Assembly (NCBI RefSeq): GCF_023701745.1
Contig: NZ_JAJOZB010000001.1
Coordinates: 3,540,501 to 3,604,500, forward strand
Reading direction: 5' to 3'
DNA length: 64,000 nucleotides
Origin: Streptomyces sp. RKAG293
GTDB taxonomy: Bacteria > Actinomycetota > Actinomycetes > Streptomycetales > Streptomycetaceae
The position numbers were made by a program, and so were the translations under genes. The notes under the pieces were generated by a model. The model worked only from the letters and a program-made list of their open reading frames with translations, searched no databases and was not told the DNA's origin. Positions 58,051-62,781 of the stretch are shown piece after piece (the first letter of the stretch is position 1; the number at the start of each line of letters is the position of its first letter).

Positions 58051-58258
58051 CCAGCCCGGCGCCTGAGGCCCACCCCCAGCCCGCCCGGCGCTTGAAGGCC
58101 GTTCCCCTCCCCCGGTCCGCCCGGCGCTTGAGGCCACCCCCAACCTGCCCGCGCCTGACACCCTCCCCAGCCCGCCCCGCGCTTGAAGACCGTTCCCCAC
58201 CCCCAGCCCGGCCGGCGCTTGAGGCCACCCCCAGCCCGCCCGGCGTTTGAGGGCACAG
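58051..58258. repeat. Seven-unit degenerate tandem repeat upstream of lysX
   Basis: About seven imperfect copies of a 28-36-nt unit around the core CCCGGCGCTTGAGG fill the divergent region between the peptidase and lysX. Cores begin near 58055, 58085, 58110, 58149, 58176, 58211 and 58239. Units are joined by C-rich spacers. The remaining parts of the 369-nt gap (57992-58050 and 58259-58360) show no other clear feature. Confidence 0.75.
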
Positions 58259-58360
58259 GGCGGGCGGGTGGGGGAAGCCCGGTGCCGGACCGGGCTCCGG
58301 TGGGGGCTCCGGCGGCGGCGTCCCGGTTGCGGAAAGCCGGGGGACGACCAGCATGGTCGT

Positions 58361-61300
58361 ATGGAGGAACCCCGCTGGAAGCGCTCGGTACCGGGGTGGT
58401 TCGGGGAGTTCTTCGCCTCACTCGCCATCTTCTGCGCCGTCCTCGCCGTAGTCGGCCCCCTGCACCGTCTCCTCGAACCCGTGCGCCGCTGGGTGGAGAT
58501 CCTGACGGTGCCGGCGTCCGCGAACCTCGCCTACGCGGCGTTCCTGATGCTGCTCGCCGGCGCGCTGGCCGCGCGCAAGCGGGTGGCGTACTGGATCGTC
58601 GTGGTGTTCCTCGGGCTGACGGTCCTGGCGAACGTGGTGCTGATCGTCTTCTCGGAGTGGAGCGCCATCCCGGCGCTGGCCATCACCGGCGCCGCGCTCG
58701 CCGCGCTGGTGCTGGCGCGCGGCGAGTTCTCCGCGCGGGTGCGCAAGGGCGCGTTCTGGCGGGCGCTGCTGGTGCTGCTGGTGGGCCTGGTGATCGGCGT
58801 CCTGGCCGGCTGGGCGCTGCTGTCGGTGTTCCCCGGCACGCTGGTCGGGAAGGACCGGCTGCGGTGGGCGGTCAACCGGGTGGTCGGTGGCGTCAACGAC
58901 CTGCCGGCCGGCATCGGTCATCCGCCCTTCTGGACCAACTTCTGGCTCGGTCTGTTCGGCGCGCTCGCGCTGCTCGCCGCCGCCGCCACGCTGTTCCGCT
59001 CGCAGAAGGTCGAAGCGGCGCTGCACGGCGACGACGAGCCGCGGATCCGCGCCCTGCTGGCGAAGTACGGGGAGCAGGACTCGCTCGGCTACTTCGCCAC
59101 CCGGCGGGACAAGTCGGTGGTCTTCTCGCCCAGCGGGAAGGCCGCCGTCACCTTCCGCGTCGAGGTGGGCGTCTGTCTGGCCAGTGGCGATCCGCTGGGT
59201 GACACCGAGGCGTGGGGGCCCGCCATCGAGGCGTGGCTGGAGCACGCGGCGCAGTACGGCTGGGTGCCGGCGGTGATGGGCGCGGGCGAGGAGGGCGCGA
59301 AGGCGTACTCCCGGGCCGGGCTCGGTGCGCTGGAACTGGGCGACGAGGCGGTGCTGGAGGTCGGTGGCTTCGATCTGGGGGGCCGCGAGATGCGTGGCAC
59401 CCGGCAGGCCGTCAACCGGGTGCGGCGCACCGGTGCGACGAGCCGGATCCGCCGGCACCGCGAGCTGTCGCCTGACGAGTTGCACGAGGTCGTGGCACGG
59501 GCGGACGCCTGGCGCGGCACCGATACCGAGCGCGGGTTCTCGATGGCGCTGGGCCGGCTCGGCGACCCGGCGGACGGCGACTGCCTGCTCGTCGAGGCGC
59601 TGGACGACGCGGGACAGGTCATCGCGCTGCTGTCGTTCGCGCCCTGGGGCCGGGCCGGGGTCTCGCTGGACGTGATGCGGCGCGATCCCGCCGCCCCCAA
59701 CGGGATCATGGAGTTCATGGTGACGGAGCTGGCGGCGCAGTCGCCCCGGCTCGGCATCCGGCAGATCTCGCTGAACTTCGCGGTCTTCCGCTCGGTCTTC
59801 GAGGAGGGCGCGAGGATCGGCGCGGGCCCGGTGCTGCGGCTGTGGCGGCGGCTGTTGCTCTTCTTCTCCCGGTGGTGGCAGCTGGAGGCCCTGTACCGGT
59901 CGAACGTGAAGTACCAGCCGGAGTGGTATCCGCGCTTCCTCTGCTACTCCGAGGCGAAGGACCTGGCCCGTATCGGTCTGGCGTCCGGAATCGCCGAAGG
60001 CTTCGTGGAGATGCCGCGGCTGCGCTTCTGGCGGGACCGGAACGTGGGGCAGGGACCGGCCGCGCTGCCCGCGTTCGTCGAACTGGAGGAGGCCTCGGCG
60101 GCCGCCGCCGACCTGTCGGCGGCAGCGGCGGGACCGGGCCGGACTGCCGGCTCCGGGCGCCCGGAGCAGGTACGCGTCAGGCTGCGGAAGCTGGAGCGGC
60201 TGCGGGACGCCGAGACCGACCCGTACCCGCCCGGCATCGTGCCCACGCACACCCTGGCGGCCGCGGCGGCGGCGCCCGCCGGCACCGAAGTACGGCTGTC
60301 CGGACGGGTGTTGCGGTTGCGCGACCACGGCGGCGTGGTCTTCGTGACGCTGCGGGACTGGTCGGGCGATCTGCAGATCCTGCTGGGCCGTGACCACTTC
60401 ACCGCCGAGGGGATGCGGGCGTTCGGCTCCGACGTCGACCTGGGCGACCTGCTGGACTTCGATGCCGTGATGGGCGCGAGCCGGACCGGCGAGGTGACCG
60501 CCGACGCGTCCACCTGGCGGCTGAGCGCCAAGTGCCTGCACCCGCTGCCCGACAAGCGGCGCGGCCTGACCGACCCGGAGGCCCGGGTCCGGCAGCGCTA
60601 TCTCGACCTGGTGGTCCGGCCCGAGGCCCGCGACGTGCTGCGGGCCCGCAGCGCCGCGGTGCACTCGGTGCGCGAGTCACTGGTGGCCCGCGGCTATCTG
60701 GAGGTCGAGACGCCGATGCTGCAGCCGGTGCACGGCGGCGCCAACGCCCGCCCGTTCACCACCCACATCAACGCCTACGACCTGGACCTGTATCTGCGCA
60801 TCGCCCCGGAGCTGTATCTCAAACGGCTCTGCGTCGGCGGTGTCGAGAAGGTCTTCGAGCTCGGCCGCACCTTCCGCAACGAGGGCGTGTCGTACAAGCA
60901 CAACCCCGAGTTCACGATGCTGGAGGCGTACCAGGCCTACGCCGACTACGACTCGATGCTCGACCTGACCCGCGAACTGATCCAGCAGGCCGCGACCGCC
61001 GCCAACGGCTCGCAGACCGCCCGCCGGGACGGCGGCGACGTCGACCTGTCCGGGCTGTGGCCGGTGCGGACCGTCAACGACGCGATCTCGCAGGCGCTCG
61101 GCGAGGAGGTCACCGCCGACACCCCGCCCGACGTGCTGCGGCGGCTCTGCGACCGCGCGGGCGTCCCGCACACCCCTGCCGACGGGCGCGGCGACATCGT
61201 GCTGGAGATGTACGAGCGGCTGGTCGAGGAGCGCACCACCGTCCCGACGTTCTACAAGGACTTCCCGCTGGACGTCTCCCCGCTCACCCGGCAGCACCGC

Positions 61301-61597
61301 GTCGACCCCCGGCTCGCGGAACGCTGGGACCTGGTCGCGTACGGCACCGAGCTGGGCACCGCCTACACGGAGCTCACCGACCCGGTCGAGCAGCGCCGCC
61401 GGCTCACCGAGCAGTCGCTGCTCGCGGCGGGCGGCGACCCCGAGGCGATGGAACTCGACGAGGACTTCCTGACCGCCCTGGAGTACGCGATGCCGCCGAC
61501 CGGGGGGCTGGGCATCGGCGTCGACCGCCTGGTGATGTTCCTTACCGGCCGGTCGATCCGCGAAACCCTGCCGTTCCCCCTGGTCCGCCGCCGCTGA
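58361..61597 (+). CDS. lysX: LysX: lysyl-phosphatidylglycerol synthase fused to lysyl-tRNA synthetase
   Basis: The 1078-aa fusion has six or so membrane helices (residues 10-220), the DUF2156 aminoacyl-PG synthase domain (about 230-560: LGYFATRRDKSV, SLNFAVFRSVFEE, YQPEWYPRFL), a linker, an OB-fold anticodon-binding domain (about 640-740) and a class II lysyl-tRNA synthetase core (FRNEGVSYKHNPEF; GIGVDRLVMF). It makes Lys-tRNA and passes lysine to phosphatidylglycerol, giving resistance to cationic peptides in related actinobacteria. ATG 58361 begins MEEPRWKRS; the ribosome site is weak. Confidence 0.94.
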   Translation: MEEPRWKRSVPGWFGEFFASLAIFCAVLAVVGPLHRLLEPVRRWVEILTVPASANLAYAAFLMLLAGALAARKRVAYWIVVVFLGLTVLANVVLIVFSEWSAIPALAITGAALAALVLARGEFSARVRKGAFWRALLVLLVGLVIGVLAGWALLSVFPGTLVGKDRLRWAVNRVVGGVNDLPAGIGHPPFWTNFWLGLFGALALLAAAATLFRSQKVEAALHGDDEPRIRALLAKYGEQDSLGYFATRRDKSVVFSPSGKAAVTFRVEVGVCLASGDPLGDTEAWGPAIEAWLEHAAQYGWVPAVMGAGEEGAKAYSRAGLGALELGDEAVLEVGGFDLGGREMRGTRQAVNRVRRTGATSRIRRHRELSPDELHEVVARADAWRGTDTERGFSMALGRLGDPADGDCLLVEALDDAGQVIALLSFAPWGRAGVSLDVMRRDPAAPNGIMEFMVTELAAQSPRLGIRQISLNFAVFRSVFEEGARIGAGPVLRLWRRLLLFFSRWWQLEALYRSNVKYQPEWYPRFLCYSEAKDLARIGLASGIAEGFVEMPRLRFWRDRNVGQGPAALPAFVELEEASAAAADLSAAAAGPGRTAGSGRPEQVRVRLRKLERLRDAETDPYPPGIVPTHTLAAAAAAPAGTEVRLSGRVLRLRDHGGVVFVTLRDWSGDLQILLGRDHFTAEGMRAFGSDVDLGDLLDFDAVMGASRTGEVTADASTWRLSAKCLHPLPDKRRGLTDPEARVRQRYLDLVVRPEARDVLRARSAAVHSVRESLVARGYLEVETPMLQPVHGGANARPFTTHINAYDLDLYLRIAPELYLKRLCVGGVEKVFELGRTFRNEGVSYKHNPEFTMLEAYQAYADYDSMLDLTRELIQQAATAANGSQTARRDGGDVDLSGLWPVRTVNDAISQALGEEVTADTPPDVLRRLCDRAGVPHTPADGRGDIVLEMYERLVEERTTVPTFYKDFPLDVSPLTRQHRVDPRLAERWDLVAYGTELGTAYTELTDPVEQRRRLTEQSLLAAGGDPEAMELDEDFLTALEYAMPPTGGLGIGVDRLVMFLTGRSIRETLPFPLVRRR

Positions 61598-61703
61598 TCT
61601 GCGGATATACCGGCCCTAGGGGGATACGGGACGGCCGGACATTGGCCGAACGGACGAGGGCGCCGGCCGGGGGCTGCCCTTACGGTGGGAGCACGGGACG
61701 TAC

Positions 61704-61734
61704 GGAGGGCCGGTCCGGAGCGGACCGGCCCTCC
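61704..61734 (-). terminator. Terminator of the permuted tRNA unit
   Basis: A perfect 14-bp stem (61704-61717 with 61721-61734, one more pair outside) with a 3-nt loop. It lies 12 nt downstream of the 5'-half of the tRNA-like sequence on the minus strand, and could also stop plus-strand read-through from lysX. Confidence 0.8.
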
Positions 61735-61746
61735 GACGACACGAAC

Positions 61747-61826
61747 TAGCGAGTGGGTCGCTCTACCGATGAGCTACGGCCCCGTGCGTGGAGCCGGCTG
61801 GATTCGAACCAACTTCTCCCCACTCT
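61747..61826 (-). tRNA. Circularly permuted tRNA-Ala-like gene (3' half before 5' half)
   Basis: On the minus strand the order is: anticodon 3' strand TGGGG (61822-61818), variable AGAA, T-arm GTTGG-TTCGAAT-CCAGC, acceptor 3' strand CGGCTCC plus A73 (61789), a 5-nt linker CGCAC, then acceptor 5' strand GGGGCCG (61783-61777), U8 A9, D-arm GCTC-ATCGGTA-GAGC, G26, ACCCA and CTCGC. The acceptor strands pair at all seven positions, with G3:U70. U33 and anticodon CGC follow in the 5' half. The anticodon stem pairs across the two ends (7-bp GAGTGGG/CCCACTC). Anticodon and G3:U70/A73 both point to alanine. Whether it is processed or charged is unknown; a decayed pair of tRNA fragments is the alternative. 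Confidence 0.75.
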
Positions 61827-61832
61827 TCAAAA

Positions 61833-61860
61833 ATCATAACAACCACCCCATTTTCCGCAA
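61833..61860 (-). promoter_or_regulatory. Promoter of the permuted tRNA unit
   Basis: On the minus strand, TTGCGG (61860-61855), a 16-nt spacer and TATGAT (61838-61833) form a near-consensus promoter in an AT-rich patch. Transcription would begin at about 61825-61827, inside the anticodon loop and just before the TGGGG strand of the anticodon stem. Confidence 0.65.
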
Positions 61861-61905
61861 TTCGGACAACGCGGTACGGGGCCTGGCATCGATGGAGGTA
61901 CAACC

Positions 61906-62781
61906 GTGGCGCTGAGCAGCGCGAAGAAGACGACCGCCACCGCTCTGGGGATGACGCTCGCCGGCGCCGCCCTGGCGGCCTGCGGCGCCCAGCAGGGCGC
62001 CCAGCAGGGCGCCCGCACGGCGCCCGTCTCCGCCCCGTCGCCTGCTCCGTCCTCCGCCACGATCCCCCATCAGACCCGGACGGGCACCCCACCCGCCCCG
62101 TCCTCGCGGCCCGCGTCACCGCCCGCCTCGTCCTCGCCGACCACCCCGACCGACGACGCGCCCGGCGGCACCCGCGTGAGCCGGGAGATACAACACGGCC
62201 TGGAGAACGGCGGCAAGGCGGTGGCCCTGACCTTCGACGACGGCCCCGACCCGCGCTGGACGCCGCAGATACTGGCGCTGCTCGCCCGGCACCACGCGAA
62301 GGCCACCTTCTGCGAGATCGGCCCGAACGCCCAGGCCCACCCCGCCGTCGTCCGGCAGATCACCGCGGCCGGGCACCGGCTGTGCGACCACTCGGTGCAC
62401 CACGACGAGCACCAGAGCGCCAAGTCCGCCGACTACAACACGCACGAGATCCTGGACGCGCGCCAGGAGATCGCCACCGCGGCCGGCCCCGGCGCCGAAG
62501 TGCCGTACTACCGGGCGCCCGGCGGCGACTTCAAGCCATGGATACGGGAGATAGCCGCCGGCCACGGAATGCGCCCGCTGGGCTGGACCTCCGACTCCGA
62601 CGACTGGAAGCGCCCCGGTACGGCCGCGATCATGCGCCACATCAACGCCAACCTCAGGCCCGGCGCGATCGTGCTGATGCACGACGGCGGCGGCGACCGC
62701 ACCCAGACGGTGCAGGCGCTGTCCCGGCTGCTGGACCAGCTCGACGCGCAGCACTACACGTACAGCTTCCCCGGGCGCTGA
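61906..62781 (+). CDS. Polysaccharide deacetylase lipoprotein
   Basis: The 291-aa protein starts at GTG 61906 with GGAGGT 6 nt upstream. Its signal peptide ends in a clear lipobox LAAC (Cys26), followed by QQGAQQGA and a Pro/Ser spacer. The NodB domain has VALTFDDGPDPRW (catalytic Asp and metal Asp), HRLCDHSVHHDEH (metal His residues), YRAPGGDF and VLMHDGGGDR. It should remove N-acetyl groups from peptidoglycan or chitin oligomers on the outer face of the membrane. Confidence 0.92.
   Translation: MALSSAKKTTATALGMTLAGAALAACGAQQGAQQGARTAPVSAPSPAPSSATIPHQTRTGTPPAPSSRPASPPASSSPTTPTDDAPGGTRVSREIQHGLENGGKAVALTFDDGPDPRWTPQILALLARHHAKATFCEIGPNAQAHPAVVRQITAAGHRLCDHSVHHDEHQSAKSADYNTHEILDARQEIATAAGPGAEVPYYRAPGGDFKPWIREIAAGHGMRPLGWTSDSDDWKRPGTAAIMRHINANLRPGAIVLMHDGGGDRTQTVQALSRLLDQLDAQHYTYSFPGR

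Follow-up and report, generated by a model that had tools for sequence, protein, structure and literature searches.

Between a lysX-type gene and a polysaccharide deacetylase gene of Streptomyces sp. RKAG293, within the 64,000-nucleotide stretch of DNA analysed here (the window), the minus strand holds the parts of a tRNA in permuted order, which an earlier note had taken for the transcription unit of a circularly permuted tRNA-Ala. The question raised by this locus is whether such an RNA can be a working tRNA and, if not, which kind of small RNA would keep the shape of a tRNA. Comparison of ten copies supports the view that positions 61751 to 61825 are a conserved RNA gene whose product folds as a circularly permuted tRNA and is probably not a working tRNA. 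The reading towards which we lean, with moderate confidence, is a small RNA gene for an untethered tRNA mimic that would be related to the tRNA-like module of YrlA-type Y RNAs, without their Ro60-binding stem, and would act beside the system of Rsr, the Ro60 orthologue.

Layout and fold of the locus

On the minus strand, read from 61860 to 61703, all the parts named in the earlier note were found, namely a T-arm, two acceptor strands, A73, a 5-nt linker, a D-arm and a hairpin, and the module runs in the order closing stem, T-arm, acceptor 3′ strand, loop, acceptor 5′ strand, D-arm and closing stem. Its 75 nt (61751–61825), delimited by fold and pair conservation as a closed permuted cloverleaf, begin with the closing stem 5′ strand GAGUGGG (61819–61825), the supposed 3′ anticodon strand, and end with the closing stem 3′ strand CCCACUC (61751–61757), the supposed 5′ anticodon strand. 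Pair conservation and fold likewise define the T-arm GTTGG-TTCGAAT-CCAGC (61797–61813), the acceptor 3′ strand CGGCUCC (61790–61796) and the D-arm GCTC-ATCGGTA-GAGC (61760–61774). The acceptor 5′ strand GGGGCCG (61777–61783) pairs with the 3′ strand at 7 of 7 positions, G3:U70 included, exactly as had been claimed, and the acceptor is capped by the loop ACGCAC (61784–61789), the first A of which is position 73 and is followed by the 5-nt linker CGCAC.

At minimum energy, 61825–61751 folds into precisely this cloverleaf (−34.3 kcal/mol, z −2.91; 2 of 200 shuffled sequences fold as well), with a 7-bp closing stem GAGUGGG:CCCACUC, a 5-bp T-arm, a 7-bp acceptor hairpin and a 4-bp D-arm. A descriptor composed of T-arm, 7-of-7 acceptor and D-arm has a single match in the 64-kb window, at this locus; applied to both strands of Markov sequence it gives 2 matches in 30 × 64 kb and 1 in 100 × 64 kb, and none in 100 × 64 kb when a closing stem of at least 7 bp is required, which bears out the earlier argument that a chance origin is unlikely.

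Upstream of the module, a candidate −35-like hexamer TTGCGG (61855–61860) and, 16 nt after it, a candidate −10-like hexamer TATGAT (61833–61838) were placed by eye on the minus strand, and from the comparison of copies the 5′ end of the RNA would be G1 of the closing stem (61825). The promoter of the earlier note, TTGCGG-16-TATGAT, is thus present as spelled out, but the epithet near-consensus overstates the case, as TTGCGG shares just 3 of 6 bases with TTGACA; for the same reason, a promoter scan of 61600–61950 calls no promoter. In the same interval no T-run terminator is called, and downstream of the module a perfect 15-bp GC-rich hairpin (61703–61735, minus strand) is a possible terminator without a U-run. 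The lysX-type gene, which combines an LPG synthase with a lysyl-tRNA synthetase (58247–61597, plus strand, start from the ORF tool), is the convergent neighbour and the polysaccharide deacetylase gene (61906–62781, plus strand) the divergent one.

Conservation among ten copies

Plain DNA similarity adds two copies from this same site and four that lie elsewhere, in other genera, and the covariance model R2, built from these seven copies, finds ten matches at 81–101 bits among 394 Streptomycetaceae genomes, followed by a next score of 51.9, the count of 10/394 being a lower bound because searches over more than 40 genomes apply stricter filters. In 325 genomes across the class, the best R2 score, 92.6 bits, belongs to the window's own copy and the next match has 49.1, so that nothing else exceeds 50 bits. 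As the 75-nt module has no match at E 1e-3 in either the phage or the plasmid collection, a phage or plasmid origin was dropped.

In the alignment of the ten copies (A3), all pair cells but one (229 of 230) hold standard pairs. Two-sided changes affect six pairs, of which three belong to the closing stem, two to the T-stem and one to the acceptor, and they reflect fewer events than these counts imply since the ten copies cluster in a few close groups. The acceptor strands are paired in 10/10 copies, and in four copies one of the seven pairs is altered on both sides, so that the compensatory changes which the earlier note proposed to look for in relatives were indeed found. A3 surpasses 500 of 500 shuffles in cells paired, in cells changed on both sides and in covariation score; 30 of the 500 shuffles match it in the number of pairs with two-sided changes and 498 do so in the number of further pair types. 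Seven rows of A3 were obtained by plain DNA similarity and the other three by R2, a model that favours pairing; the plain-similarity rows by themselves (A2) have 161 of 161 cells paired and five two-sided pairs, a number reached by 9 of 500 shuffles. Near-complete pairing in A3 together with two-sided changes in three helices therefore argues for a conserved RNA gene. A wider alignment of 30 of 32 permuted modules (A1, two from L024 omitted) shows covariation that is circular and so no evidence, because most of these modules were gathered by a descriptor demanding acceptor pairing.

The D-loop/T-loop elbow covaries in part, with pair 55/18 being U-G in six copies, G-A in three and U-U in one, and pair 56/19 being C-G in all ten. 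The T-stem has a bulged base in seven of the ten copies, unlike a standard tRNA, and every copy except one (L132) is predicted to have the cloverleaf as its minimum fold. Conservation extends to the margins of the module. A hexamer with A at position 2 and T at position 6 ends exactly 7 nt 5′ of the closing stem in 10/10 copies, and 16 nt upstream of it stands TTGC in seven copies, replaced in the other three by TGGCGG (one copy) or by an ATGCGG shifted by one base (two copies); the hexamers were placed by eye and read across the copies at fixed offset, and it is this comparison that speaks for a promoter. The closing stem always opens with G. The loop that caps the acceptor is 6–9 nt long and starts with AC in every copy, and a strong hairpin (under −26 kcal/mol) follows downstream in five. 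Transcription would start at 61825, where the closing stem begins, the RNA would fold into the closed permuted cloverleaf, as the pair changes in three helices indicate, and the transcript may end at the downstream hairpin. The neighbouring genes differ among the copies, being lysX and deacetylase (three copies), an esterase-like gene (three, Pfam-tested in one), isochorismatase, AMP-binding and rsr genes, and between close relatives the flanks diverge and the module letters are unchanged.

The supposed anticodon loop

The outer helix speaks against a role in decoding. The earlier note had placed an anticodon stem across the outer ends, with an alanine anticodon in its loop. This pairing is real but leaves no open loop, as the helix of 7 bp reaches the supposed loop positions 32–34, which pair with bases 3, 2 and 1 of the closing stem in 10/10 copies. 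The triplet at nominal positions 34–36 reads, copy by copy, CAC, CGC, CAC, CGC, CGT, CGC, CTC, CGC, CCC and CAC, which makes the alanine anticodon CGC the triplet of just four copies beside CAC in three and CGT, CTC and CCC in one each. With a closed loop throughout and an unconserved anticodon, the claims of an exposed alanine anticodon and of a functional tRNA-Ala gene are not supported, and the permuted tRNA-Ala was set aside. The alanine acceptor set, G3:U70 with A73, is present as claimed and kept in all ten copies; it is no mark of a translating tRNA, however, because YrlA-like RNAs of other phyla have both.

A functional circularly permuted tRNA-Ala gene with its ends joined in the anticodon loop is, accordingly, barely credible. 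Besides permuted topology and acceptor set, it could draw on the U at nominal position 33 in 10/10 copies and on the ligase RtcB, encoded in all 14 genomes tested; but U33 is accounted for by its pairing with A2 of the closing stem, and RtcB is just as present in the four of these genomes without the RNA as in the ten with it, and is hence uninformative as a discriminator. Furthermore, the RNA occurs in just 10/394 genomes (a lower bound), and the permuted tRNAs of algae and archaea are thought to need BHB splicing, as stated in PMC3978253. A plain tRNA was ruled out, since ARAGORN finds neither tRNA nor tmRNA at the window locus and no tRNA at any of the ten copies. The same program was used on four relatives without the RNA for the intact ancestral tRNA that, according to the earlier note, would turn the locus into a rearrangement scar, and finds none at or near the site.

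Relation to bacterial Y RNAs

Bacterial Y RNAs are described to contain a tRNA-like domain that resembles the D-, T- and acceptor arms, and to bind Rsr by a basal stem formed by their ends and PNPase by the tRNA-like domain (PMC8394870); a bacterial Y RNA superposes on tRNA with a circular permutation (PMC11472068). The best Rfam match at the window locus is YrlA (RF02553), with 30.3 bits and E 2.9e-4 at a gathering cut-off of 69, and the Rfam tRNA model reaches 15.8 bits, over a stretch that is shifted. A pattern of acceptor and loop retrieves ten loci from GTDB contigs, two of which (L008 and L009, from S. fildesensis and Streptomyces sp. PH10-H1) are the Streptomyces locus. At the eight others, YrlA-type stem text flanks the module in 8/8 (by eye), Ro60/TROVE and/or RtcB genes adjoin seven, with none in one L026 frame tested, and ARAGORN finds no tRNA. 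G3:U70 and A73 are thus shared with YrlA-like RNAs of other phyla, at a frequency that is not derivable from these loci because they were picked by a pattern containing the alanine-like acceptor. The literature search returned no such RNA in Streptomyces among the matches listed, its scope excluding the primary YrlA literature.

The Ro60-binding stem with its internal loop is absent from the Streptomyces RNA, where a promoter-like sequence and a divergent flank are found instead, and because this RNA stands alone without that stem, the defining feature of Y RNAs is missing. On the stem, Rfam alone is not decisive, because the window copy aligns to YrlA model positions 1–114, with mismatches, and the modules L002 and L003, which belong to the rsr-side RNAs of the same genome, match only over 24–84 and 23–86; L008 and L009 match positions 31–81 of 114 only. 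At best, the core is 0.79–0.86 identical to Streptomyces tRNA-Ala (four genes), 0.81–0.98 to YrlA of other phyla (pattern-selected) and 0.74–0.83 to rsr-side RNAs of the same genus, and being about as close to tRNA-Ala as to YrlA it proves neither descent from a Y RNA nor descent from tRNA-Ala.

Several further permuted modules came to light. The RNAs of L017 and L018, with a YrlA-type stem and situated beside rsr and/or RtcB, score 62–65 bits and are thereby also below the RF02553 gathering score of 69. In each of two Pedosphaera genomes, three consecutive permuted modules lie close to a gene of Ro60 type (L019:7606–7955 and L024:5363–5713), and a viral contig (L027:4166–4222) carries a permuted module with a 42-base core 98% identical to that of the window.

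Co-occurrence with Rsr

The window genome possesses an rsr gene (TROVE) immediately preceded by a permuted module (L002), and a second module elsewhere (L003), both of which Rfam annotation would miss because they score 36 bits, far under the cut-off of 69. TROVE is found in 15 of 35 genomes of the genus, and at nine of ten fetched TROVE loci one or two permuted modules adjoin rsr, L065 being the one where none was seen. By prediction, the flanks of the rsr-side stretches mostly pair into a long basal stem, a few stretches being without the module as minimum fold. As a set, these Y RNA-like modules (L002:1504–1558, L003:1506–1559, L058–L064 and L066) have diverse acceptor stems and are mostly beside rsr, with two modules per locus in three cases. 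Ro-like proteins 45–53% identical to a Streptomyces Rsr are encoded in phage records H16–H25 (Streptomyces, Gordonia and Arthrobacter).

TROVE is present in nine of the ten genomes that bear a copy of the stand-alone RNA, versus 213 of the 384 others (Fisher 0.027, kinship ignored). The tenth, G093, retains a 69-aa C-terminal rsr remnant (L159:4612–4818) next to a gene that, by eye, we take to be PyrE-like. At the lysX site, seven genomes of the genus have a clear lysX match, three with both RNA and rsr and four with neither. Kinship alone does not explain this pattern, because the lysX stretches of two RNA-less genomes are 96% and 94% identical to that of the window genome, closer than the 91% of the third RNA-bearing genome. 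In G075 the RNA gene and rsr itself converge on each other, and in the other nine copies rsr is not adjacent; the rsr of G020 is divergent, with 48% identity to the query versus 72–73% in G000 and G007. Statistically, the co-occurrence of RNA and Rsr is weak (p about 0.03 in each test, kinship ignored), and together with the one adjacent locus it suggests a link to Rsr.

A different protein accompanies another set of permuted modules. In the window genome, two modules about 146 bp apart follow a DUF7873 (PF25283) gene (L004:1532–1734, equivalent to C1:2232446–2232648, minus strand), and in all 14 loci of this kind that were compared, which come from three genera and include some in TROVE-negative genomes, DUF7873 adjoins the modules; in two of these loci (L079 and L082) the descriptor finds just the second module. 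DUF7873 homologues followed by permuted modules are also located in phage tRNA arrays, with one module by the descriptor in Arthrobacter phage Racecar (L161), two in Gordonia phage Phendrix (L162) and one in Rhodococcus phage NiceHouse (L163), and L164 as a less clear case; in all, 73 phage records have a DUF7873 match. Judged from these arrangements, DUF7873 and its modules possibly form an RNA–protein pair independent of Ro60. The predicted structure of DUF7873 has a mean pLDDT of 47.5.

Alternative explanations

If the RNA is not a tRNA, it could be a structured regulatory RNA, that is a base-pairing sRNA or the leader of the next gene, with a borrowed tRNA-like fold. In G378, G141 and G241, a co-oriented gene, which Pfam marks as a putative esterase in G378 and which is alike by sequence in the other two, begins, by its provisional start codon, within a few tens of nucleotides downstream without a strong hairpin; yet the neighbours vary by lineage, both neighbours in the window are on the opposite strand and it is the fold that is conserved, which leaves this possibility doubtful. 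That the locus is a decaying remnant of tandem tRNA-Ala genes, or of a Y RNA stripped of its outer parts, kept by chance, is very unlikely. The sporadic presence of the RNA would fit a remnant, and tandem tRNAs can create the permuted topology, since the same permuted match arises from tRNA-Asn genes in tandem; three helices with two-sided changes, the elbow changes, the fixed spacing of the promoter-like sequence in ten copies at several sites and the divergence of flanks between close relatives around constant module letters nevertheless speak for maintenance. The tandem artefact is itself a source of false positives: at L001:1477–1630, a tandem of tRNA-Asn genes looks like a permuted tRNA and matches YrlA, and L001 and 11 of 29 newly fetched loci proved to be tandem tRNA-Asn, which the window locus is not. 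Calls of permuted tRNAs in bacteria should consequently be checked first against Y RNAs and tandem tRNAs.

The conserved acceptor invites a further alternative, a two-piece, alanine-accepting RNA in the style of tmRNA with a role outside decoding, in rescue or amino-acid transfer. RNase P and a 3′ nuclease would cut the acceptor loop, CCA would be added and AlaRS would charge the RNA, the closing stem holding the halves together. Permuted two-piece tmRNAs do occur in bacteria (PMC3978253), G3:U70 and A73 followed by C are kept in 10/10 copies, and three of the ten loops begin with ACCA (L124, L129 and L132). Against this stand the loop of 6–9 nt that caps the acceptor, the invariance of six of the seven acceptor pairs, so that G3:U70 is not singled out, the same acceptor in the (pattern-selected) YrlA-like RNAs and the lack of space for a tag reading frame, with just 6 nt between the acceptor strands in the window. 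The Rfam model tmRNA_permuted has no match in window positions 61200–62400 up to E 5 and none in L008/L009 up to E 0.05; the YrlA-type locus L018 matches it weakly (30.4 bits, cut-off 47). A two-piece RNA of this kind is unlikely, and still less probable is the elaboration that the acceptor, opened after transcription, is charged by AlaRS via G3:U70 and the RNA barred from the ribosome by the closed stem, so as to serve as a dedicated amino-acid donor or sensor tied to RNA quality control by Rsr.

The untethered tRNA mimic related to the YrlA-type module, in turn, would work beside the Rsr system by engaging, without a tether, the targets of Y RNA modules, with PNPase, tRNA-modifying enzymes or the structured-RNA targets of Rsr as candidates, and might compete or cooperate with the full Y RNAs apparently encoded by the same genome. 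In the model for bacterial Y RNAs, it is these RNAs that tether Ro60 to an effector, by way of their tRNA-like module. A module made alone in mostly Rsr-bearing genomes would split the two halves of this tether model and make the module's own job testable, be it control of PNPase, a decoy for tRNA enzymes or competition with Y RNAs.

Comparison with known systems

With the permuted tRNA genes of algae and one archaeon, the window RNA shares the 3′ half preceding the 5′ half and a short linker joining the acceptor strands, but it has no free anticodon loop and no conserved anticodon. With two-piece tmRNA, it has in common a permuted alanine-type acceptor (G3:U70, A73) with an intervening segment, from which it differs by a loop of 6–9 nt, complete D- and T-arms and the absence of a tag frame. 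The junction of two equal tRNAs in tandem duplicated genes likewise appears permuted and matches the same models, whereas ARAGORN sees no tRNA at any of the ten copies of the stand-alone RNA.

Closest are the YrlA-type Y RNAs. The stand-alone RNA deviates from them in being without the Ro60-binding stem and internal loop, in a closing stem that starts at the putative 5′ end, in a promoter-like sequence of its own, in adjoining rsr in one of ten copies and in 30.3 bits versus the gathering score of 69. It shares with them the permuted order of T-arm, acceptor hairpin and D-arm with a loop-capped acceptor, the exit of both ends via a stem at the position of the anticodon stem, the acceptor letters of YrlA-like RNAs from other phyla and an occurrence in Rsr-bearing genomes.
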